From Ardenticatena maritima (lineage in GTDB: Bacteria > Chloroflexota > Anaerolineae > Ardenticatenales > Ardenticatenaceae), in contig NZ_LGKN01000009.1 in the NCBI RefSeq assembly GCF_001306175.1, positions 62,001-126,000 on the forward strand: DNA of 64,000 nt, read 5' to 3'. Made by a program: the position numbers and the translations under genes. The notes under the pieces are model-generated. The model was not told the DNA's origin and searched no databases. It worked only from the letters and a program-made list of their open reading frames with translations. This document shows positions 13,343 to 38,908 of the stretch, in pieces (within the stretch, counting starts at the first letter, position 1; every line of letters starts with the position of its first letter).

Positions 13343-16300
13343 TTAACGCGCAACCAGCGGGAGATAAACGTTGTGCGATGCAACGGTCAACGTCACGGGC
13401 ACCGGAGCAATCGCATATGGCGACGTGTTGTCCAGCCGCAGATACGCCGAGTATGTCGTAAAATCCAACCCCGTGGTGTCGAAGGTGAGCCACATGGTCA
13501 CTTCTTCGTGCGGCGGCACAACAACCTGATTGGCGGAAAGCGTCAACCACGGTACCGCGTTCCACTCACAGGGCGACAATTCGCCCGACGTCACAATCAA
13601 GACCTCGTTATCATGCTGGTCGGCAATCGCCAGCGTGCCATCGCACAAGAGCGCCATCCCCGCCTGCCCAAAATCATCAAGCCCGGGCACATCAAAGCCG
13701 CCTAAAAGCGCGAAATCACGCGCAGCGTCGAGCACGTACACGTCAAAGCCCTCATCATCGTTCGCCAGCACAAACAGGTGTTGCGTGGTGGGGTTGATCG
13801 CCATCCCCGCCAGCGGTATGCCCACCGCCACCGAGCGCAACCGCCGCCCGGTCTCGTCGAATTGGTGAATCACACCATCGTTCCACGAGCCGCTGTAAAA
13901 AGTCGCTGTGCGCGGGTCATACGCCAGCCCACGCTGGCTTAGCCCCCACCCAGGACAAACACCTTCACCAACCTGCCCGGTCCGGGCATCAAGCGCCACG
14001 ACACAATCATCGCCTTCAACCGCAACCTGCCACAAACGCCCCTCGAAGGGGTGCCACACCGCACCCGCCCGAAACCGTGCCGGCGCATGCGGCACACGCA
14101 CTGTTGCTGTCAGTGGTTCTCCTGCCGCCGTGAACGCCTGCCATGTTGTACGCCCATCCTCGCTTGCAGAAACCCAGAGCGTCCCGCCAGGTTCTGCGGC
14201 CAGCCCCCATACACCATTCAAGCCGGTTGCCCACCGTTGGAGCACCTTGCCGCCACCAGACCACACAGGCGCATCCGGCGGGGGTGGAGCATACACATGC
14301 TCAGCCGTGCGATCCCCCAGATGTTTGGGAGAAATGCGCCGCATGGGGGGGGCGAATGTGTCGGCGGGTTCATTCAACGGTAAAGGCGCATTGATGCTGT
14401 TGATGGAGACTGTCAGCGTCAGCGCCCCCGTGTTGCCAATGGTGAGCGGGACAGCAACCTGCCTATCGCGGTCAAACACTAATGAAAATGCGGTTGGAGT
14501 GATGACCGGCCGTGGAGCGGGTAGCGCAAAATCCTGCCAAAGTGGAACGGCGTCCTGAATGGTGAGCGTGGTCTGTTGCGCGCCATAGCCGTTGTCACCC
14601 GTTGCCTGCACGGTATGCGTACCTTCCGGCAAAAAAAGCATGTAGAACCCATCCGCCAGCGCGGGGTCGGTTGTGGCTTCTGTTTGTACCGTCATGCTCA
14701 CACCAGCCGAAACCTGGGCATCCACAATCGGCTCGCCGGTGTTAGCATCGTACACATGTCCCATGAGGAACGCCCCCGCTACAGGCTCGCACTTAGGCAC
14801 ACTGCCAATTTGCACCGCATCCACCTGCCACCACCACTCAAAATCCGCGTCGAAGTAGTGGAAACGGGCTTGCAAAGTGGTTGCGCCTGCCGTCCGGTCG
14901 CTCAGGTCCAGACTAACACGCCCGTTGACATTGCTACTACCGCTCTTATTCTCCCAGACGGTTTGCCACGCGCCGCCGTCCACACGAACATCCACACGCA
15001 TGACTTCACTACTGTTCCGCTGGACATCCGTATTGAACGCCAGCATCACCCCATCCAGCCCCGCAATGTTGAGGACAGGCGTTCGTAATTCAGTGTCCTG
15101 GAAACTATTACGACCGTAAAAGTCGCTATCCACGATGGCAAACCCGCCAACGCTTCCCGTCAGGTTGCCGCGTCCACCTGGGTCATCGAAACGCCATACC
15201 GCCCCACCGCCGCGGTTATCGAGCACCTGCCAGCCCGTCGGCGTGGTCCCCGTCTCAAAGTGTTCATCCAGCACCAGCGTTTGCACCCGATGATAGCCCG
15301 GCGCGTTGCACGTTGTTTCATTCACCAGCAAGGCAAAATCTTCCTGCTGGGGGGCTGTCAGCGGTCCAACGGCGCGCCGTTCTGTGTTGTAGCCATCCAC
15401 CCACGCATGGACTTCAAAAGTGTAGGCGATTTGTGCGGCTAAGGTCACGCTGTAAAAGCCGGTAGTGGGATTGGTCCACACAGCCCCCACAGGGGCTTGG
15501 GGAATGAGAATTTGGGCGTACAGCGGTTGCCCGGTGCGTGCATCGCGCACGGTGCCGCTCACCACGTAGGTGGGGGCGCTTGTGAGCGTGAAGGCAAGCG
15601 TGGTTGTGATACCATCGCTGACCACGACGTTGGTTTGCGTCACCGGCACGTACCCATACGCCGAAACCGTCACGGTATACGTGCCCGTGGGGACATTCTC
15701 CAACCGAAAGTGCCCATCGCTCTGCGATTCGGCCGAGAAGAACCCAATCTGAACGCGCGCCCCCACAACAGGCGTCCCATCTGCTTCACGCACAGTACCC
15801 GCCACGGAGCCCGTAGGTCCGGTTGTGCAGGTTGGAAAGCGAAACGCCCCAATGCGTGTACGCCAGTTGGACGTTCCCGGCGCTGCGTAGTACTCCTGCG
15901 TGTACCAGAACGTGCAATCATCCTGTGGGTCGAGCGTGAGCATGCTGTAATCCCCAAAACGCCCCGAGGACGACATTTGATAGCCGCCACCTTCGACCAA
16001 CGAGGCTTCAGCAAGCGTCATCTCCCCCAGCGGGTCGCCCGCAAAACGCCCCGTGTAGCGCACCGAGGGGGATGTCGTCGGGCTGCTGACAGCGTACCCT
16101 AAAGCGATGTTCCCCTGCTTGTCCATGGCGATACTGCCCATCCAGCGGTGGGCGCTATCAGGTGCGAACGTACCTTGTTGGTAAATGTTCCACGTCCCGG
16201 CGACGTGCCGCAATTCATACCATCGAATCCCCGCATGGTCGCTTCCGTCGGCGTCCACCGTATGGTTGAGCACCATTGCGCCATAGGAACCGAACCAGCG

Positions 16301-17488
16301 ATACGCCGCGCGATACATCAGACGGTCGGCAATCGCATCAAGCGGCACCCCGCCTGGTTGCGGAATGCAATTGCGGCTCCCGCCACATATGCTGGCGTCA
16401 AATGGCTGCGTATCCAGAATTTGATTGGGCGCTCCATCTACGCCAAAAGTGGCACTTTCAGGGGCGTTCCAGTCCACTGAGAGATGCCAGAGACTCAAAC
16501 GATCGGTTGCCCATCCCCAGGCATCATCATCCATTTCGACAAAGACGGCGGGCGTGCCAGACGGCGGCGGGGGACCATCCAGATCAGCGGGCAACATGCC
16601 GCCAAAGTTGGGGTTGACATCGTACAAATCGAAGAAGACCATGCGCGCATTTTGCCCCTCAAGCATGCGCGCACGCTCCAAAGCCGCTACACCTTGCCCA
16701 CGCCATGCCAGCGTCGAACCGTCAAACTGGTTCACGGTGAGCAAGTACGCATTAGGCCAAACCGCCAGTTTGGGGTAATCATTCATGGCATCGCCCATGT
16801 CGAAATCGTAGCGATACCATGCGCCGGTGGGGTCGGCTGTTTGTGAGACCGCCAGGCACTGGTGGAAGTTCGAGGGAAAATCGAGCGCAAATTGCCCCAC
16901 AAGCCAGCGCTGCGCCAGATGGTCGAACAAGACAATCGGGTCGCCGTCGTTGTTGGTTTCACACAACCCGCCAAACCCCGCCCACAGGGTATTGCCCGCC
17001 ACCGGTCCAATCAACAAAGTGGGGGTGAGCGTGCTCACATCCCAAATCGCGAACGCCGTGTTCACCCACTGCATGAAGAACTTGCGCCCCGTCGCAGCGT
17101 CATACCCAATCGCCCCGCTGGGGTCAGGCGGGAGAATGGTGGTGAGGTTGGCAATGCCATCGAAACTCATGAGCGGTTCCGGCATGGTGATGTCGGGCAT
17201 AACCGTCTGGACAACGGGGTCGCGTTGTCGGGCGAAGGGCGTTGGTGCAGTGGCGCTTGGCTTCCGCAAGTGCAGGCGTTCCCACGTTGATGGGGCGATC
17301 ATCGGCGCATCTTGCGCCAACGTGCCGAGAGGCGGCGACGTATCAAAACGCTCCGCATAGCGGACAACAGGCGCCAAGGTCGTGGATTGGGCATGCAAGG
17401 CGAGCGGGCGTTGCCACACGAACGGAATCAACACGCCCAGAAAACCAATCAGCACCACCAGGCTACGCTGCACTGCGGAACGAGGCAT
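13343..17488 (-). CDS. Large secreted protein with carboxypeptidase-regulatory repeats and a beta-propeller-like C-terminal half
   Basis: A 1381-residue protein with a signal peptide (basic start, hydrophobic core VVLIGFLGVLIPFVW, cleavage near LHAQS). I use the ATG at 17488, with GAGGAA upstream; a TTG at 17506 would add six residues. Residues about 100-530 read like a large catalytic-less propeller or sialidase-like domain with many Trp and Asp. Three carboxypeptidase-regulatory-like units follow (SVAGTVREADGTPVVGARV, VVSGTVRDARTGQPLYAQI, LMGHVYDANTGEPIVDAQV), with a jelly-roll-like segment between the second and third. The last 300 residues contain repeated propeller-like blades (YDPRTATFYSGSW, NPTTQHLFVLAND). 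The C-terminus HNVYLPLVAR is a short tail seen on many Chloroflexota secreted proteins. Probable role: cell-surface adhesion or polymer binding. Confidence 0.85.
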   Translation of the reverse strand: MPRSAVQRSLVVLIGFLGVLIPFVWQRPLALHAQSTTLAPVVRYAERFDTSPPLGTLAQDAPMIAPSTWERLHLRKPSATAPTPFARQRDPVVQTVMPDITMPEPLMSFDGIANLTTILPPDPSGAIGYDAATGRKFFMQWVNTAFAIWDVSTLTPTLLIGPVAGNTLWAGFGGLCETNNDGDPIVLFDHLAQRWLVGQFALDFPSNFHQCLAVSQTADPTGAWYRYDFDMGDAMNDYPKLAVWPNAYLLTVNQFDGSTLAWRGQGVAALERARMLEGQNARMVFFDLYDVNPNFGGMLPADLDGPPPPSGTPAVFVEMDDDAWGWATDRLSLWHLSVDWNAPESATFGVDGAPNQILDTQPFDASICGGSRNCIPQPGGVPLDAIADRLMYRAAYRWFGSYGAMVLNHTVDADGSDHAGIRWYELRHVAGTWNIYQQGTFAPDSAHRWMGSIAMDKQGNIALGYAVSSPTTSPSVRYTGRFAGDPLGEMTLAEASLVEGGGYQMSSSGRFGDYSMLTLDPQDDCTFWYTQEYYAAPGTSNWRTRIGAFRFPTCTTGPTGSVAGTVREADGTPVVGARVQIGFFSAESQSDGHFRLENVPTGTYTVTVSAYGYVPVTQTNVVVSDGITTTLAFTLTSAPTYVVSGTVRDARTGQPLYAQILIPQAPVGAVWTNPTTGFYSVTLAAQIAYTFEVHAWVDGYNTERRAVGPLTAPQQEDFALLVNETTCNAPGYHRVQTLVLDEHFETGTTPTGWQVLDNRGGGAVWRFDDPGGRGNLTGSVGGFAIVDSDFYGRNSFQDTELRTPVLNIAGLDGVMLAFNTDVQRNSSEVMRVDVRVDGGAWQTVWENKSGSSNVNGRVSLDLSDRTAGATTLQARFHYFDADFEWWWQVDAVQIGSVPKCEPVAGAFLMGHVYDANTGEPIVDAQVSAGVSMTVQTEATTDPALADGFYMLFLPEGTHTVQATGDNGYGAQQTTLTIQDAVPLWQDFALPAPRPVITPTAFSLVFDRDRQVAVPLTIGNTGALTLTVSINSINAPLPLNEPADTFAPPMRRISPKHLGDRTAEHVYAPPPPDAPVWSGGGKVLQRWATGLNGVWGLAAEPGGTLWVSASEDGRTTWQAFTAAGEPLTATVRVPHAPARFRAGAVWHPFEGRLWQVAVEGDDCVVALDARTGQVGEGVCPGWGLSQRGLAYDPRTATFYSGSWNDGVIHQFDETGRRLRSVAVGIPLAGMAINPTTQHLFVLANDDEGFDVYVLDAARDFALLGGFDVPGLDDFGQAGMALLCDGTLAIADQHDNEVLIVTSGELSPCEWNAVPWLTLSANQVVVPPHEEVTMWLTFDTTGLDFTTYSAYLRLDNTSPYAIAPVPVTLTVASHNVYLPLVAR

Positions 17489-17533
17489 AAGCACACGCTT
17501 CCTCAATCTTGTGTCAGGTTTGGGATAGGCTTC

Positions 17534-17983: not shown

Positions 17984-18079
17984 GGGGTTCCTCCCTTATT
18001 GTGTGTCAGTTGCCGGACGACGTGTTCATTATACCGTGCCTCACGCCCACTGCCAAATCATAACCAAACGTTTGTTTGG

Positions 18080-19084
18080 CTAGGCGGATTCGCTGTACAA
18101 CGCTTCCTGGATATTCGCAATTTCCTGGCGCAACGCGGCAATCATCTCAGCATTGCCATTTTCATTCCCCAAAAGCCGAAACTGCCGCTTTTTGAACGCC
18201 AATTCTGCCGCGAGCAAGCAAATTTTATCAAGCAACCGCGCACGCTGGCGTTGCCCGTTGCGCATCAAATGATTGCGGGCTTGCATGCGGGCACGATAAC
18301 TCGCCGCCGCTTCCACTTGCCGGGGCGTGAGCAAGCCGCTTTCCACTTCGTCTTGCAATTCTTGCCGAATGAGCCGTGCTTCCTCTCGCAACGCCCACCA
18401 CACAAGCGCCAACCAGCCCAACACACCGCCCCACGCCACAAACAACGACCCCAAACAAATCAAAGACCCCGTGCTGTTGAGGAAGTTATGCAACATGTGA
18501 ATGAAAATTGCGAGCGCCAACCCGCCCAGCGGCGCCAATGCGCGCGTTGCTTGTGAGGTGGCGTACCGCGCTAGCGCCAGCCCAAGCCCAAACATGGAAC
18601 TATACAGGGCATGGTTCAGCCCAAAGACGAAGGCTCGCAGCACAATGGTGCCCAGAAAAGCCGCCCCACCTTGTGATGAGCTTCCCAAGAAGTAAAAGAA
18701 GTTCTCGGTCATCGCAAAGCCAAAGCCCACCAGAGCGCCATACAGCAACCCATCCATCAACCCATCAAATTCATGGCGGAAGAAGATGAAGATGAACACC
18801 AGGGGGATGGCTTTGAAGATTTCTTCTACAATTGGAGCAATCAGCGCCACGCTCAAGAAACCCGCATTGGGGGAAGAAAAGGCAAGCCGCAAAGGGACGT
18901 CAAACAACAATTCGGCAAACAAGGACAAAACAACTGCGGGGACCGCCCCCCACAAAAAAGTGACCGCCAACAACCATAACGGTTCTTTTTCGTGGTGATC
19001 AAGCGACCACGCCACATAGGCATAGAAAAGCATGGGGATCACCGCCGCCACAAATGAAACCAACGCAACGATCAGCAGCATCAT
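18080..19084 (-). CDS. PrsW-family intramembrane metalloprotease
   Basis: A 334-residue protein with about eight hydrophobic segments. It carries the PrsW/CAAX-protease type motifs: IVEEIFKA (Glu87, Glu88), FRHEFDGLMDGLLYG (about 102-116), TENFFYF (Glu127) and later His in LNHALYSS and HMLHNF. Members cut membrane-anchored proteins such as anti-sigma factors; the target here is unknown. The C-terminal 90 residues are a charged cytoplasmic tail with heptad-like Leu/Ala spacing, probably a coiled coil. AGGAGG precedes the ATG. It follows the PHP gene by 18 bases in the same direction, so the two are likely co-transcribed. Confidence 0.85.
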   Translation of the reverse strand: MMLLIVALVSFVAAVIPMLFYAYVAWSLDHHEKEPLWLLAVTFLWGAVPAVVLSLFAELLFDVPLRLAFSSPNAGFLSVALIAPIVEEIFKAIPLVFIFIFFRHEFDGLMDGLLYGALVGFGFAMTENFFYFLGSSSQGGAAFLGTIVLRAFVFGLNHALYSSMFGLGLALARYATSQATRALAPLGGLALAIFIHMLHNFLNSTGSLICLGSLFVAWGGVLGWLALVWWALREEARLIRQELQDEVESGLLTPRQVEAAASYRARMQARNHLMRNGQRQRARLLDKICLLAAELAFKKRQFRLLGNENGNAEMIAALRQEIANIQEALYSESA

Positions 19085-33002: not shown

Positions 33003-34367
33003 TTACGCCTTGATATCCAGCACACGCATTTTGAAATCGAAGCCGGGGGTTGGAAGCGGCGAAAACTTCATGCGCACCGTGGTATCGGGTGGGTCGAGCG
33101 CCAGTTGCGCCGTATGCAAAATGGTGGCAACAGTAATCATCAGCTGCGCTTCGGCAATGCCCGCCCCCAAACAGGTGTGCGGTCCCAGTGTGAAGGGGGC
33201 GAAAACGCCCGGTTGGCGATGCTCAGCGCGTTCAGGCGTGTAGCGGTCAATGTCGAACGTGTCCGGGTTCGGGAAGTATTCTTCCAGCATGTGCGGCAAC
33301 GCATTCGCCACCAGAATATCCACCCCTTTGGGAATTTCGTAGCCGGCAAATTCAAATGTTTGCGCCACCACACGTGGCGTAATGGGCGCAACGGGAAACA
33401 TGCGCAAGACTTCCAGCACAAAGCCGTAAAGCGCTTGTGCGTTTTTGAGCGTCTGGCGGTCAATCGTCTCCGGCGGCTGAGCCAATAAGGCTTCCGCATC
33501 CGCCAGCACTCGCTCCAACACCCCCGGAAACTTGTGCGCCGCGTAGAGCGCAAATGTCATCGTGCCGGCTACGGTGTCCATCCCCGCAAAATAGACGCTC
33601 ACAATCGAAGCCTGCAACGCTTCTTCAGGCACGGGGTTGCCATGCTCATCACGAAACGCAAGCAAATCCGCCACCAAACGGCTCGAAGGCGCTTCTCCCC
33701 GCGCCACACGCGCCCGCTCCAATTCCAGCAATTTCGCCCCCAGACGCTGCACACGTTGTTTGGCGAAGAGATACCGCGGCCATTTCGTCAAAAACGACGG
33801 CGCCAGCGGAATAGTCGAGGTGCGAATCGCCATGTTGAGGTAATACCGGATATCCTCGAAAAATTCGGGGGGCGGTGGATACCCCAGGATGATTTCGCCC
33901 AACTGCGCCGTGATAATGCGTTGCATCTCGTGCATGACGGTGATACGACTACCGGGCTGCCATTCACGCACAAAGCGGCGTGTGATTTCAATCGCGCGCG
34001 GTATCTCCTGCTCATACACCCGCCGATTGTAGCCGGGGCTCAACAAGCGGCGCAGGGTGCGGTGCCATTCGCCATCCTGCGCAATCAAGAAGTAATCAGC
34101 ATGCCCCAACTGTTCCCCCAAGGGGTAGAGGTTGCGACTACTCAAAACGGTGCCATCGGCACGCGCCAGAAACTGATTGGCTTCAACACCTGCTAAAACC
34201 CAGTATTCTTTTGTGAACAATTTCACTCGAAAAACAGGCCCGAATGCACGATACTGTGTGCGCAGAAAACCAAGCACATCGCCCAAGAAGGCAAAGGCGT
34301 TGCCCGCCACAGGAACGCCCGGCACACGTGGAACATCACGCGCAGCAGGAGTAGTTGTTGTATTCAT
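33003..34367 (-). CDS. Cytochrome P450 (second of two paralogues)
   Basis: A 454-residue P450 with haem loop FTLGPHTCLGAG (Cys399), K-helix EVLR, and a normal I-helix oxygen-activation motif, FAGMDTVAG. It clearly shares recent ancestry with the neighbouring P450 at 31331: the C-terminal 60 residues differ at few positions. Its ATG overlaps the stop of the sulfotransferase gene (ATGA), so the two are translated together. The intact I-helix suggests this is the standard monooxygenase of the pair. Redox partners are not encoded in the window. Confidence 0.94.
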   Translation of the reverse strand: MNTTTTPAARDVPRVPGVPVAGNAFAFLGDVLGFLRTQYRAFGPVFRVKLFTKEYWVLAGVEANQFLARADGTVLSSRNLYPLGEQLGHADYFLIAQDGEWHRTLRRLLSPGYNRRVYEQEIPRAIEITRRFVREWQPGSRITVMHEMQRIITAQLGEIILGYPPPPEFFEDIRYYLNMAIRTSTIPLAPSFLTKWPRYLFAKQRVQRLGAKLLELERARVARGEAPSSRLVADLLAFRDEHGNPVPEEALQASIVSVYFAGMDTVAGTMTFALYAAHKFPGVLERVLADAEALLAQPPETIDRQTLKNAQALYGFVLEVLRMFPVAPITPRVVAQTFEFAGYEIPKGVDILVANALPHMLEEYFPNPDTFDIDRYTPERAEHRQPGVFAPFTLGPHTCLGAGIAEAQLMITVATILHTAQLALDPPDTTVRMKFSPLPTPGFDFKMRVLDIKA

Positions 34368-35458
34368 GCGCTCACTCCTTCTGCTTGATAGCCCCAGCGG
34401 TCGAGCAAAAAGCCAAGGTGGCTTTCAACCAGGGTGCGGTCGCGCTCGCTGGGGGTGAATTGATTGGTTCGGTAATCGCCCAATTGGCGCAAGTAGGCTT
34501 CCCACTTCGGCACAACCGGTGTGGGGTCAAGTCCCAGGTGTGTGTAGATGGCGCGCAATGTTGGGATTGGTTCCGCCACCAGCCGCTCATACGGTACTTC
34601 GATGACGCGCGCGGGGTCAATCATGGGCATATCGCGATACCAGCGCTGCATCACCTGGGCGTAGGATTCCAGAATATGGCGTTCTATATCTTCATCGCTC
34701 ACACGGTGCCACCAGGCCGGCGGCATGATTTTGCGGAACATGTGCCGCATCGAGCGAAACACGCGGTGCGGATTACGGTAAATGTGAATGAAGCGCGCCT
34801 GCGGGAACAGACGGAGCAAGTGCCCCGCACGCCCGGTATGCGTGGGTGCTTTCAACACGAGCGGTTTGCCGCCGTGCAGGTATGTGGCGGTTTTGAGCAC
34901 GTACAACCAGGCTTCGCGCCATTCGTTGTACTCATGCAATGGTATCTCATCCAGCAATGTGTATTTGCGGAACAGACGCCCACTCCACCGTGGCACAACA
35001 AGCTGGTAAATGACGCTATGCACACTCACATTCGCCAACGCCACTTCATCTTCCTGCGGCGCATCCAGCCGCACGGCGACGTTGTCCATGGGGCGCGTTG
35101 CCGGCAACAGGCGCGGCAACAAGCGCTCAAAAGCGGGTCCCGCGGTGTTGATGAAGGTGGGAATGAGGGCTTGCAAGGTCGAAACGTAGCCGTAGCGTGG
35201 GTCGAGCGCCAGCAAGTTGTGCAGGTGGGTGGTGCCACTCCGCGCCTGCCCCACAATGAAAATCGGTTCGGGGTGAATGTCCGTGGCAAGGATGCGCGGC
35301 GCGTAACGCTGGCGTTCCCAAAGACGCAAAGGTTCGGTCAGCGCCGAAACGGCGAGCGATTGGGCGACACGCGGCCAATACCGTTTTTCGATGGTTGGCG
35401 ATTGCTGCAAAAGCCGCACCCAATTTGCCAGGCGATTGAAGATGAGTGGCGAAGTCAT
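34364..35458 (-). CDS. Sulfotransferase-family protein
   Basis: A 364-residue protein with the 5'-phosphosulfate-binding loop PIFIVGQARSGTTHLHNLLA (about residues 88-107), and RFIHIYRNPHRVFRSMRHMF, which carries the Arg and Ser that bind the 3'-phosphate of PAPS in the Sulfotransfer_3 group. VIEVPYERLVAEP is also typical. Such enzymes move sulfate from PAPS to hydroxyl groups of lipids, steroids or glycans. The ATG at 35458 follows GAGG; a GTG two codons earlier is possible. It is the first gene of an operon with the second P450, which suggests hydroxylation followed by sulfation of the same substrate. Confidence 0.88.
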   Translation of the reverse strand: MTSPLIFNRLANWVRLLQQSPTIEKRYWPRVAQSLAVSALTEPLRLWERQRYAPRILATDIHPEPIFIVGQARSGTTHLHNLLALDPRYGYVSTLQALIPTFINTAGPAFERLLPRLLPATRPMDNVAVRLDAPQEDEVALANVSVHSVIYQLVVPRWSGRLFRKYTLLDEIPLHEYNEWREAWLYVLKTATYLHGGKPLVLKAPTHTGRAGHLLRLFPQARFIHIYRNPHRVFRSMRHMFRKIMPPAWWHRVSDEDIERHILESYAQVMQRWYRDMPMIDPARVIEVPYERLVAEPIPTLRAIYTHLGLDPTPVVPKWEAYLRQLGDYRTNQFTPSERDRTLVESHLGFLLDRWGYQAEGVSA

Positions 35459-35484
35459 ATACACGCCTCAACCGGTTGATGGAT

Positions 35485-35513
35485 TTGAGCAAGTTGTTGC
35501 TTCTGGATATACT
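35485..35513 (+). promoter_or_regulatory. Sigma-70 promoter of the TetR-paaABCD operon
   Basis: TTGAGC (35485-35490) and TATACT (35508-35513) are exactly 17 bases apart. The expected transcription start falls inside the palindrome that begins two bases later. Confidence 0.6.
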
Positions 35514-35514
35514 G

Positions 35515-35540
35515 TTTCCTAACAAGTGTTTGTTAGGAAA
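35515..35540. promoter_or_regulatory. Perfect palindrome, probable TetR operator
   Basis: TTTCCTAACAA (35515-35525) and TTGTTAGGAAA (35530-35540) are perfect 11-bp inverted arms around GTGT. The site lies between the divergent sulfotransferase and TetR genes, directly after the -10 of the TetR promoter, as expected for a repressor site. Size and symmetry fit TetR-family dimers. Confidence 0.7.
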
Positions 35541-35596: not shown

Positions 35597-36196
35597 ATGC
35601 CTTACGGAGAACGCAAAACCCAAATTATTGAGACAGCCGCACAATTATTCAGCGAACGAGGCTATCATGCCACCTCGGTTCGGGATATTGCCGCGGCGCT
35701 GGATTTGCAAGGCGGGAGTCTCTACGCGCACATTCAAAGCAAAGAAGAAGTGCTCTGGTTGATTGTGGAGCGTGCCGCGGAGCAGTTTTTTGAGGCGGTG
35801 CGCCCCTTAGCCGAAAGCGACCTGCCCCCCGATGAAAAATTGCGCCGCGCCGTACACGCCCATATCCGCGTCATCACCGACGACCTCGCCGCCGCCACGG
35901 TCTATTTCCACGAATGGCGCTTTCTGGAAGAAGAGCACCGCAACACGTTCCTGGAACAACGCCGCGAATATGAGCACCTCTGGCGGGAGATGGTGCGCGA
36001 AGGGATGGAGAAGGGCGTTCTGCGCAATGACGAAGACCCCAAGTACATGGCGATTCTGATTCTGTCCGCGATGAACTGGCTCTACCACTGGTATCGCCCG
36101 GACGGTCCGCTGTCCCCGGACGAAATCGCCGAGCGGTTCTGGCGTATGCTTCTCGAAGGCTTGCAAGCGCCTGTGTTTGAAGTCCCAACAGCATAA
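35597..36196 (+). CDS. TetR-family regulator of the paa operon
   Basis: A 199-residue protein. The N-terminal helix-turn-helix is typical (IIETAAQLFSERGYHATSVR, then DIAAALDLQGGSLYAHIQSK), followed by an all-helical ligand-binding domain with a C-terminal FWRMLLEGLQ segment like acyl-CoA-responsive regulators. It is the first gene of the paaABCD operon (21 bases to paaA). In Thermus, a TetR-type PaaR represses paa genes and is relieved by phenylacetyl-CoA; an analogous role is inferred here. CAGGAG precedes the ATG at 35597. Confidence 0.9.
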   Translation: MPYGERKTQIIETAAQLFSERGYHATSVRDIAAALDLQGGSLYAHIQSKEEVLWLIVERAAEQFFEAVRPLAESDLPPDEKLRRAVHAHIRVITDDLAAATVYFHEWRFLEEEHRNTFLEQRREYEHLWREMVREGMEKGVLRNDEDPKYMAILILSAMNWLYHWYRPDGPLSPDEIAERFWRMLLEGLQAPVFEVPTA

Positions 36197-36217: not shown

Positions 36218-37207
36218 ATGAGTAGCCCGCAAACCGACCCGCGCTATGAAGAAAAGTTAGCCGAATTTGAAGCCCGTATCGCCCGTGGCGAGAAAATCGA
36301 GCCGGACGACTGGATGCCCGATGAGTATCGCCGCCAGCTGATTCGCCTCATTCAGCAACACGCCAACAGTGAAGTGATTGGCGCCCTGCCTGAAGGGACG
36401 TGGATTCCATACGCCCCCACGTTCAAGCGCAAGAAGGCGCTGGTGGCGAAGGTGCAGGACGAAGTGGGGCATGGGCTGATGCTCTACCGCGCCGCTGAAA
36501 CGCTGGGCAAGCCGCGCGAAGAGATGATCGAGGAGATGCTCTCAGGCAAGTCCAAGTGGTCGCTGGTGTTTGCCTATCCCGCCGAAACGTGGGCGGACGT
36601 GGCGATCATCGCCTGGTTGATTGACGGCGGGGCGATTGTCAATCAGACCATCATGGCAACGGGCTCATATGCGCCCTACTGCCGCGCCCTGAAACGCATC
36701 ATCTACGAAGAATCATTCCACCTGAAACATGGGTTCGACATGGTGGTGACGCTCGCCGAGGGCACGAAACGCCAGCGCGATATGCTCCAAGACGCGCTCA
36801 ACCGCTGGTGGGAACCCATCATCATGTTCTTCGGGCCGCCCGATACGCTCTCGAAGCATACACCCGTGTTGAAACGCTGGGGCGTCAAGCCGAAGACGAA
36901 CGACGAGCAACGCCAGATCTTCTTGCGCAAGTTTGTGCCCCAAATCCTCGACCTGGGGCTCACCATTCCCGACCCCAATCTGCGCTACGATGAAGAAAAC
37001 GACCGCTGGCTCTACACCGAACCGGACTGGGACAAGTTCTTTGACATCATCCGCGGCAATGGGCCGATGAGCAAGGAACGCCTGGCGGTACGCCGCCTGG
37101 CGCACGAAGAGGGGCGCTGGGTGCGCGAGGCGCTGGAAGCAACAGGCATCGCCCGCCAATTGCGCGAGGCGGCTGTTGCCGCGCCTTCATCGAGTGTGGT
37201 GGCGTAA
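36218..37207 (+). CDS. paaA: Phenylacetyl-CoA epoxygenase subunit PaaA
   Basis: A 329-residue protein matching PaaA, the catalytic diiron subunit that epoxidises the aromatic ring of phenylacetyl-CoA with O2. The diiron ligands lie in the two helix motifs [13 protein letters not shown] (Glu-x-x-His) and [14 protein letters not shown] (Glu-x-x-x-His type), with a further Glu expected near MIEEML. The substrate pocket segment [15 protein letters not shown] is also conserved. The ATG at 36218 follows GGAGGGAG. It is the first structural gene of paaABCD. Confidence 0.95.
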
Positions 37208-37221
37208 GAAAGGAGTGAACC

Positions 37222-37605
37222 ATGTCGCCCAAAACCTGGCACTTCAACCCATACCATCAACGCATTGACGAAGCCATGCAGTTGATGGACAAACCGCCCC
37301 ACGCCGATACGGAGTGGATTTTGTTCGAGGTATTTGTGCGTGAAAAACGGGGCGAGCACCCCGTCCATGTGGGTGCACTCCACGCCCCCGACCCCGAAAT
37401 GGCGATTATCCTCGCCAAAGAGCAGTATCTGCGCCGTGGTGAAGCCGTGCAGTTGTGGGTTGTGCCTTCAGCCTGCATCACCGCAACGCCCATCGAAGAA
37501 GCGGACATTTTCACGCACACGACCGACAAGAGCTACCGCGAAGCCTACGGCTACCGCGTCGCCGAACGTGTGCGCCAATTGCGCGGGGAGGAGAAAGATG
37601 AATGA
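37222..37605 (+). CDS. paaB: Phenylacetyl-CoA epoxygenase subunit PaaB
   Basis: A 127-residue protein with the PaaB core WILFEVFVREKRGEHPVHVG, HAPDPEMAIILAKEQYLRRG and SLWVVPS-like LWVVPSACI. PaaB is a small non-catalytic subunit that bridges PaaA-PaaC heterodimers. The N-terminal 25 residues and the C-terminal YREAYGYRVAERVR are slightly longer than in the E. coli protein. GAAAGGAG precedes the ATG; its stop overlaps the paaC start by 8 bases. Confidence 0.93.
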   Translation: MSPKTWHFNPYHQRIDEAMQLMDKPPHADTEWILFEVFVREKRGEHPVHVGALHAPDPEMAIILAKEQYLRRGEAVQLWVVPSACITATPIEEADIFTHTTDKSYREAYGYRVAERVRQLRGEEKDE

Positions 37606-38392
37606 GATGACACCGGCTTACAAAGCCGCACTCATCGAGTATCTCTACATGCTGGCAGATGATGAGCTCTTGCTGGGGCATCGCGCCTCAGAATGGACGG
37701 GCATTGGTCCCATTTTGGAAGCTGATATTGCCCTGTCGAGTATCGCCCAGGATGAGATGGGGCACGCCGAGGTGCTCTACGGGTTGCTGGAAGCGTTGGG
37801 CGAAGGTCATCCCGATGAGCTGGCGTTTGCGCGCGACCTGCCGTATTGGCGCAACGCCATTTTCAGCGAACTTCCCCGCGGCGATTGGGGGTTCACCATT
37901 GTGCGCCACTACTTGCACGACGTTGCCGAACAGGTGCGCTGGCAAGCGCTCGCCGCGTCGTCATACGCGCCGCTGGCGCAGGTGGCGCGCAAGTTGCTGG
38001 TGGAAGAAAAGTACCACCTGGTGCACAGCCAAACGTGGGTGCGGAAACTGGGGAACGCCACAGAGGAAAGCCATCGCCGCATGCAAGCCGCACTCGACCG
38101 CGCCTTTCCCTACGCGCTGGGGCTGTTTGAACCGACCGAACTGGAAGCGGTGCGCGTGAGCGAGGGGATTGCCCCCGCCGAAGCAGACCTGCAACAACAA
38201 TGGTTGAACGAAGTCGTGCCTTTCCTGCAACAAGCGGGGTTGCACGTGCCCGCCGAAGAGACCGCCGAGGGCTGGCGTCCCACTGTCGAACCAGTGTACG
38301 GGGGGCGGCAAGGCACGCACACGGAATACATGGAACAGCTGCTGGACGCGATGCAGTTTGTCTATCGGCTGGAACCGGGGGCGAAATGGTAA
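37598..38392 (+). CDS. paaC: Phenylacetyl-CoA epoxygenase subunit PaaC
   Basis: A 264-residue protein resembling PaaC, the structural partner of PaaA. It has the same ferritin-like four-helix fold (YLYMLADDELLLGHRASEWT, SSIAQDEMGHAEVLYGLLEA, LLVEEKYHLVHSQTWVRKLG). The start at 37598 overlaps the end of paaB and follows GGGGAGGAG; a second ATG lies three codons later. It may bind metal weakly since it keeps some Glu/His residues. Confidence 0.93.
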   Translation: MNEMTPAYKAALIEYLYMLADDELLLGHRASEWTGIGPILEADIALSSIAQDEMGHAEVLYGLLEALGEGHPDELAFARDLPYWRNAIFSELPRGDWGFTIVRHYLHDVAEQVRWQALAASSYAPLAQVARKLLVEEKYHLVHSQTWVRKLGNATEESHRRMQAALDRAFPYALGLFEPTELEAVRVSEGIAPAEADLQQQWLNEVVPFLQQAGLHVPAEETAEGWRPTVEPVYGGRQGTHTEYMEQLLDAMQFVYRLEPGAKW

Positions 38393-38431
38393 GCCCCCAT
38401 GCACGGTTGAGCCGCTCAAAAGGAGTTGCGC

Positions 38432-38908
38432 ATGATCAATGAAGAGATGGTGTGGCAAGCCCTGAATGAGGTCAAAGACCCCGAAATTCCCGTGGTCTCC
38501 GTGGTGGAAATGGGACTTATCAACAGCGTGGAAATAGAGGGCAACCATGTGGTGGTCAATATGACGCCCACGTTTGCCGGGTGTCCGGCACTGCACATCA
38601 TGCGTGACGAGATTTGCGCACGCCTGGCGGAACTGGGCGCGGAAGCCACCGTCAACTTTGTGTTTGATCCGCCATGGACATCGGACCGCATTCAGGAGAG
38701 TGCGCGCGAAAAGATGAAGACGATTGGACTGGCGCCGCCGGCGCGCCATGGCGGGCTGATAGAGGTGGACATGCTTGGGGTTGTTGCCTGCCCCTACTGC
38801 GGCTCGGACAACACCAATATGGAAAGCCCCTTCGGGACGACCATTTGCCGCGCCATTTACTACTGCCACAATTGCAAGCAATCGTTCGAGAAGTTCAAGG
38901 CGTTATAA
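38432..38908 (+). CDS. paaD: PaaD, Fe-S/zinc-ribbon assembly factor of the epoxygenase
   Basis: A 158-residue protein. The N-terminal two thirds is a MIP18/DUF59 domain (ALNEVKDPEIPVVSVVEMGL, TFAGCPALHIMRDEI with its conserved Cys). The C-terminus is a zinc ribbon, CPYCGSDNT and CHNCKQ. PaaD is needed for maturation of the PaaABCE complex. The ATG at 38432 follows AAAGGAG. A terminator follows; no paaE reductase gene is found in the window. Confidence 0.93.
   Translation: MINEEMVWQALNEVKDPEIPVVSVVEMGLINSVEIEGNHVVVNMTPTFAGCPALHIMRDEICARLAELGAEATVNFVFDPPWTSDRIQESAREKMKTIGLAPPARHGGLIEVDMLGVVACPYCGSDNTNMESPFGTTICRAIYYCHNCKQSFEKFKAL

Follow-up and report, generated by a model that had tools for sequence, protein, structure and literature searches.

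Upstream of the paaR-paaA-paaB-paaC-paaD genes of Ardenticatena maritima, in the 64,000 nt stretch of DNA analyzed here (“the window”), a perfect palindrome follows a promoter-like sequence at a distance of one base pair (Table 1). It is very likely the autoregulatory operator of the PaaR repressor encoded just downstream, and its release would be brought about by phenylacetyl-CoA. This reading draws on the DNA anatomy of the region, the gene order, conservation within the genus, an upstream motif found in several phyla, and the identity of a recognition-helix stretch; binding of PaaR to the palindrome, its ligand, and the exact transcription start are inferred. A PaaR dimer would sit on the palindrome, beginning one base past the -10 box and extending over the expected start at about position 35520. 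Because the dimer would cover this start, RNA polymerase would be kept from opening or leaving the paaR-paaA-paaB-paaC-paaD promoter. As phenylacetyl-CoA (the substrate of the PaaABC epoxidase) builds up, it would bind PaaR and free the DNA, and the operon would be transcribed. This is very probably a switch of an ordinary kind whose DNA site is unusually symmetrical.

Table 1. Features of the paaR upstream region and neighboring genes. Positions are those of the window.
Feature	Positions	Strand	Remarks
-35 box TTGAGC of the paaR-paaABCD promoter	35485-35490	+	Read from the sequence and a promoter scan
-10 box TATACT	35508-35513	+	Spacer of 17 nt from the -35 box
Putative PaaR operator	35515-35540		11 bp perfect inverted repeat, loop GTGT
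Register A 14-mer, CTAACAAGTGTTTG	35519-35532		Relaxed CNAACRNNYGTTNG, 10/10; published CNAACGNNCGTTNG, 8/10 specified positions
Register B 14-mer, AACAAGTGTTTGTT	35521-35534		Dyad is that of the 26 bp palindrome
Extra half-site GTTAG	35532-35536		4 bp beyond GTTTG (35528-35532)
paaR, TetR-family repressor	35597-36196	+	199 aa
paaA, phenylacetyl-CoA epoxidase subunit	36218-37207	+	TIGR02156, 441.6 bits (cut-off 280)
paaB	37222-37605	+	PF06243 over cut-off; TIGR02157, 80 bits, just below cut-off (85.45)
paaC	37598-38392	+	TIGR02158, 264.1 bits (cut-off 133.35); profile scan used 37595-38392; start codon ATG
paaD	38426-38908	+	TIGR02159, 166.1 bits (cut-off 108.15)
Divergent sulfotransferase gene	34364-35458	-	PF13469; possible GTG start at 35464
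Cytochrome P450	33003-34367	-	PF00067
Second cytochrome P450	31331-32713	-	PF00067

The paaR open reading frame could be extended upstream as far as 35540, but the start common to it and its sister-species counterpart is the ATG at 35597, which is preceded by a ribosome-binding-like GGAG. The predicted protein has a TetR_N helix-turn-helix domain (PF00440, 52.7 bits, cut-off 24) and a C-terminal ligand domain (PF17932 TetR_C_24, 148.4 bits, cut-off 26.4). It shares its family with KstR2, PfmR, and other solved TetR regulators (3dcf, E 2.1e-33; 3vpr, which we take to be PfmR, 9.5e-31; 4w97, 1e-25), whose target genes and ligands are unlike those of PaaR.

TTGAGC-17-TATACT is the sole promoter recognized between 35380 and 35650, with 9 of 12 consensus positions matched; the shuffled control for this region gave a mean of 0.4 (sd 0.6). 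TTGACA-like boxes are found at the equivalent place in several relatives, and TATACT itself recurs in L004/L062, L005/L063, and L010. The palindrome reads TTTCCTAACAA-GTGT-TTGTTAGGAAA. A first-pass annotation of this DNA had reported an 11 bp perfect palindrome behind a 17-spaced promoter, at a place where a TetR dimer would stop RNA polymerase; the palindrome is indeed present there and covers the expected transcription start. The gap to TATACT is a single G (35514), however, and not the two bases given in that annotation.

As a bare inverted repeat, the palindrome is less remarkable. Six perfect inverted repeats with arms of at least 11 bp and loops of up to 10 were found in the window, versus a mean of 0.245 for dinucleotide-shuffled versions (42 of 200 had at least one). 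The other five have arms at least half G+C; the one considered here has 3 G+C in 11 and lies on a promoter. Searched with up to three mismatches, its 22-letter pattern has a single occurrence in the window and none in 100 shuffles; in the whole genome there is one exact copy and one with three mismatches (C6:149274), with no occurrences of the reversed control. The chief argument that it is more than a product of chance is its conservation in the sister species of the same genus (G001), where it takes the form TTCCTAACAAGTGTTTGTTAGGAA: the two sites are identical at 24 of 26 positions, as against 72 of 114 alignment columns for the rest of the intergenic region. Sites of other Ardenticatenaceae and Chloroflexota (CTAACGAGCGTTAG, CGAACGATCGTTCG, CGAACGGTCGTTCG, and CAAACGTTCGTTAG) likewise lie 3' of the promoter-like sequence of the TetR gene preceding paaA. 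G002 comes without upstream DNA.

An 11 bp perfect inverted repeat with a 4 nt loop could also fold as RNA, and might then serve as an attenuator or as a stabilizing leader hairpin. Judging from the -10 box, however, transcription is expected to start within the left arm, so that the RNA would lack part of the stem; the terminator scan found no terminator-like site, and there is no Rfam match at the palindrome. What relatives conserve, moreover, are the half-site letters CNAAC/GTTNG, while the distance to the extrapolated gene start varies. A role at the RNA level is hardly credible on these grounds, and a DNA operator remains by far the preferred reading.

For a broader survey, the best 80 of 130 loci from a scan of named genomes were taken. 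With the window added and one locus with only two bases upstream (L064) dropped, these yielded 80 testable PaaR-type genes, in which the search covered 180 bp upstream of the gene start and the first 15 bp within the gene; starts were extrapolated from the alignment, and are inaccurate where the protein is shorter, as in Thermus. The published 14 bp consensus, CNAACGNNCGTTNG, is matched perfectly at 36 of the 80, and a relaxed version, CNAACRNNYGTTNG, with the inner G/C loosened to R/Y after the window's site was known, at 56; the relaxed motif had no perfect match in 40 shuffles per region. The other 24 genes have relaxed-motif scores, out of 10, of 9 (14 rows), 8 (8 rows), 7, and 6. The first-pass annotation had named relatives with the operon but without the site as evidence against an operator, and the perfect motif at 56 of 80 testable genes is not the distribution that this would predict. 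Four remoter TetR genes (L011-L014, 32-38% identical) have no perfect upstream motif, with best scores of 8, 8, 9, and 7 of 10.

In 62 of the 80 loci (again from the best 80 of 130), paaA is found no more than 400 bp downstream. The other 18 have none in the DNA fetched, the sequences of L132 and L139 stopping right past the TetR match. Nine of these 18 nonetheless keep a perfect motif, which therefore marks PaaR-like genes of other contexts too; either the regulators at these nine loci have another target, or paaA lies elsewhere. Eight of the nine are Meiothermus (L089, L092, L098, L101, L106, L112, L113, and L115), with no paaA within 5 kb downstream.

The best-studied counterpart is PaaR of Thermus thermophilus HB8 (TTHA0973), for which the following is taken from PMC6651687 and PMC9493321. 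It is encoded in a paaR-paaA-B-C-D operon (TTHA0973-TTHA0969; PMC6651687, Table 5), and acts by repression with phenylacetyl-CoA as effector (PMC9493321, PMC6651687); transcripts of paaA-D are increased in a TTHA0973-deficient strain, by log2 3.5-4.1 (PMC6651687, Table 5). Two 14 bp consensus sequences are given: CNAACGNNCGTTNG, derived from two promoters (Sakamoto et al., 2011, via PMC9493321 and PMC6651687), and AACnAACGTTnGTT, obtained by selection (PMC6651687). The protein binds the probe AACAAACGTTTGTT with a KD of 5.4 nM (PMC6651687, Table 1), and single changes at positions 6 and 7, to bases other than the window's, give 4.7 and 16.6 nM (PMC6651687).

In the window, AACAAGTGTTTGTT agrees with AACnAACGTTnGTT at 10 of 12 specified positions about an identical dyad, and with probe AACAAACGTTTGTT at 12 of 14, differing at positions 6 and 7 only. 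At the protein level, the window protein and PaaR of Thermus parvatiensis have the 15-residue recognition-helix stretch LQGGSLYAHIQSKEE in common without a single difference; T. parvatiensis PaaR stands in for TTHA0973, the latter not being among the loci compared. A protein tree, built after six short or interrupted rows had been left out, gives firm grouping within Ardenticatenia alone (5 rows, 98/95); the deep forks that separate the window protein from Thermus PaaR are weakly supported, and four added remoter rows fall inside. With the tree this weak, orthology to Thermus PaaR is argued from gene order, helix, and operator.

The two systems thus have in common a TetR-family regulator, the operon order, an operator at the regulator's own promoter, and the half-sites CNAAC/GTTNG. 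They differ in several respects. The operators known in T. thermophilus HB8, at TTHA0973 and TTHA0963, have other core letters between the half-sites than the window, whose site is a perfect 26 bp palindrome. The Thermus site lies a few bases before the start codon (-3 in Table 2 of PMC6651687; L093), whereas that of the window is 57-82 bp upstream; and the divergent sulfotransferase-P450 operon of the window locus sets it apart from the T. thermophilus HB8 system. PaaR of Burkholderia cenocepacia, as described in PMC9493321, is of the TetR type too and represses paa genes from an inverted repeat until a “compound II”, taken as phenylacetyl-CoA, releases it, but its operator, ACCGACCGGTCGGTT, is another sequence, which the window letters do not match.

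Other copies of the motif in the genome bear on which regulator recognizes the palindrome. Exact 14-mers number 37 in the A. maritima genome (G000; reversed control 23) and 50 in that of the sister species (reversed control 31). By a 26-column matrix built from the 56 perfect operators, and so partly from the window's own site, nine of the 37 score at least 19, and each of the nine is matched, at the equivalent position in the sister species, by an exact 14-mer; among the lower-scoring sites, 5 of 28 are. The nine are found at paaR; at genes for a paralogous TetR protein, an electron transfer flavoprotein (ETF), a FadB-like protein, an acyl-CoA synthetase, and a thiamine pyrophosphate (TPP) enzyme; in the gap between oligopeptide-binding-protein and permease genes; between subtilase and ribosomal S1-like genes; and at 18057-18082 of the window.

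The paralogous, FadR-like TetR protein (C6:238096) could conceivably be the one that binds the palindrome, in place of PaaR: it is 40% identical to the window PaaR, and its own promoter carries a site, CAACCAAACAATCGTTTGATTG, that likewise conforms to the degenerate 14-mer. Against this, the sites at the paralog, ETF, FadB-like, and acyl-CoA synthetase genes share the form CCAAAC-4-GTTTG with flanks unlike those of the window, whose outer arms CTAAC and GTTAG are shared by the L093 (Thermus) and L094 (Thermaceae) operators, and the paralog has another sequence, ILRGSLYHHIESKEA, at the equivalent helix. With regulators assigned to sites by position and sequence only, we regard the paralog as a very unlikely binder of the palindrome, and PaaR as the strongly favored one. 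The paralog appears to head a fatty-acid regulon, with the fatty-acid sites as its own. Its gene (L167, 3043-3704) is followed by one for an acyl-CoA dehydrogenase, and sites like CAACCAAACRATYGTTTGGTTG are found at the ETF, FadB-like, and acyl-CoA synthetase genes (L168, 2373-2402; L169, 2428-2457; L170, 2608-2637). All four sites, that at the paralog included, are conserved in the sister species.

Three further sites were noted in their own right. One of PaaR type lies in the oligopeptide-binding-protein/permease gap in both Ardenticatena species (L002, 1501-1526; L186, 1501-1526), in a poorly conserved intergenic stretch; it reads TTTCCAAACAAGTGTTTGTAAGG in G000 and TTTCCAAACAAGCGTTCGTAAGC in G001, and in G000 it has the 13-mer AACAAGTGTTTGT in common with the window operator. 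It is tentatively assigned to PaaR. A second, of PaaR/FadR type (AACCAAACGTTTGTTTGG; 18057-18082 of the window), extends across the end of a PrsW-like gene, lies some 550 bp upstream of a large minus-strand gene (13343-17506), and is kept in the sister species. The third, conserved and of the same type, is directly 5' of the TPP enzyme gene (L180, 1744-1773). This enzyme was considered as a PaaR-controlled phenylpyruvate decarboxylase, but is nearest to acetolactate synthase/2-hydroxyacyl-CoA lyase, and the suggestion was dropped.

A search for the palindrome before other paa genes had been proposed, and was negative for a paaF/paaG/paaH-like cluster (L166), whose families all fall below their cut-offs and which has no matrix match of at least 7 bits. 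PaaE (TIGR02160) has no match in the genome; it matched in 9 of 14 control genomes, none past the curated cut-off, so that a paaE gene may have been missed. The best PaaK match in the genome (TIGR02155) reaches 242.4 bits, below the cut-off of 646.3. Although paaABCD are present, no clear candidate thus emerged for the pathway's electron donor or its ligase.

A single PaaR site might in addition repress the divergent sulfotransferase-P450-P450 operon, which would be compatible with autoregulation. The intergenic region is 138 bp long, and the sulfotransferase ATG (35458) lies 57 bp from the near end of the palindrome; at this distance such control is physically plausible, and a minus-strand promoter would probably overlap the palindrome. 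The sister species has these genes head to head as well (L062; sulfotransferase 84% and P450 80% identical), and its -10 region, AGTATACT, reads identically on both strands. On the other hand, a simple sigma-70 consensus scan, which covers that promoter type alone, recognized no promoter on the minus strand. Sulfotransferase and P450 genes adjoin paaR in only 2 of 81 loci (the best 80 of 130, plus the window), namely the window and the sister species; a sulfotransferase match at E<=1e-20 is found in 3 of 60 genomes, A. maritima included, the third with 34% identity; and operators persist in relatives without sulfotransferase or P450 genes. Joint repression is possible, but we consider it somewhat doubtful. 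Of the two roles given to the palindrome by the first-pass annotation, that of a TetR operator thus very probably holds for the adjacent PaaR-like gene, while silencing of the sulfotransferase-P450 operon has proximity in its favor and neither a recognized minus-strand promoter nor wider linkage.

The half-sites of the putative PaaR operators show a further regularity. In 37 of the 56 perfect operators, which include related species and are not independent, a second half-site is found beyond the 14-mer, at an offset of 4 bp: 26 have a trailing TTNG and 11 a leading CNAA, with no operator carrying both. At 1/64 per side, chance would account for about 2 of 56. At the other offsets compared (1-3 and 5-8) there is one case only, at offset 8, although this comparison is partly constrained by the fixed letters. 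The 4 bp repeat occurs in Ardenticatenia, Meiothermus, Thermus, Actinomycetota, Sphaerobacter, and one Bacteroidota. Thermoflexus and the remaining Bacteroidota rows lack it; operators without it number 19 of 56 in all. The symmetry of the window palindrome is that of the outer register (CTAAC...GTTAG), whose half-site centers are 11 bp apart, or about one helical turn. Twelve Thermoactinomycetaceae loci (L066-L068, L071, L073, L077, L080, L084-L086, L091, and L099) have a core unlike the others, CAAGCGCTTG, which is symmetrical about the outer-register dyad.

The combined sequence CNAAC-4-GTTNG-TTNG holds the half-sites of both published consensus patterns, in registers 2 bp apart, and the repeat may represent alternative binding registers or the placement of two dimers. 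As a tentative and rather speculative synthesis, PaaR operators of several phyla could be built of GTTNG units at 4 bp steps with two overlapping dyads, each published consensus being one register of this element and the window palindrome an Ardenticatena form made symmetrical in the outer one, with PaaR of this genus acting on the oligopeptide transporter as well. No mention of a 4 bp repeat of the PaaR half-site was found in the literature within reach, nor of a PaaR site in Ardenticatena (PMC9493321, PMC9927371, PMC13186573, and PMC6651687 included, in their accessible portions), most subscription journals lying outside that scope. The repeat would offer a simple, testable reason why two laboratories arrived at two different 14 bp consensus sequences for PaaR.

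These observations would extend to Ardenticatena a PaaR switch that is known experimentally from Thermus, and the upstream motif would carry it further, to other Chloroflexota and to Deinococcota, Actinomycetota, and Bacteroidota. With the motif present across these phyla, the paa operons of many uncultured organisms could be annotated as probably PaaR-regulated.
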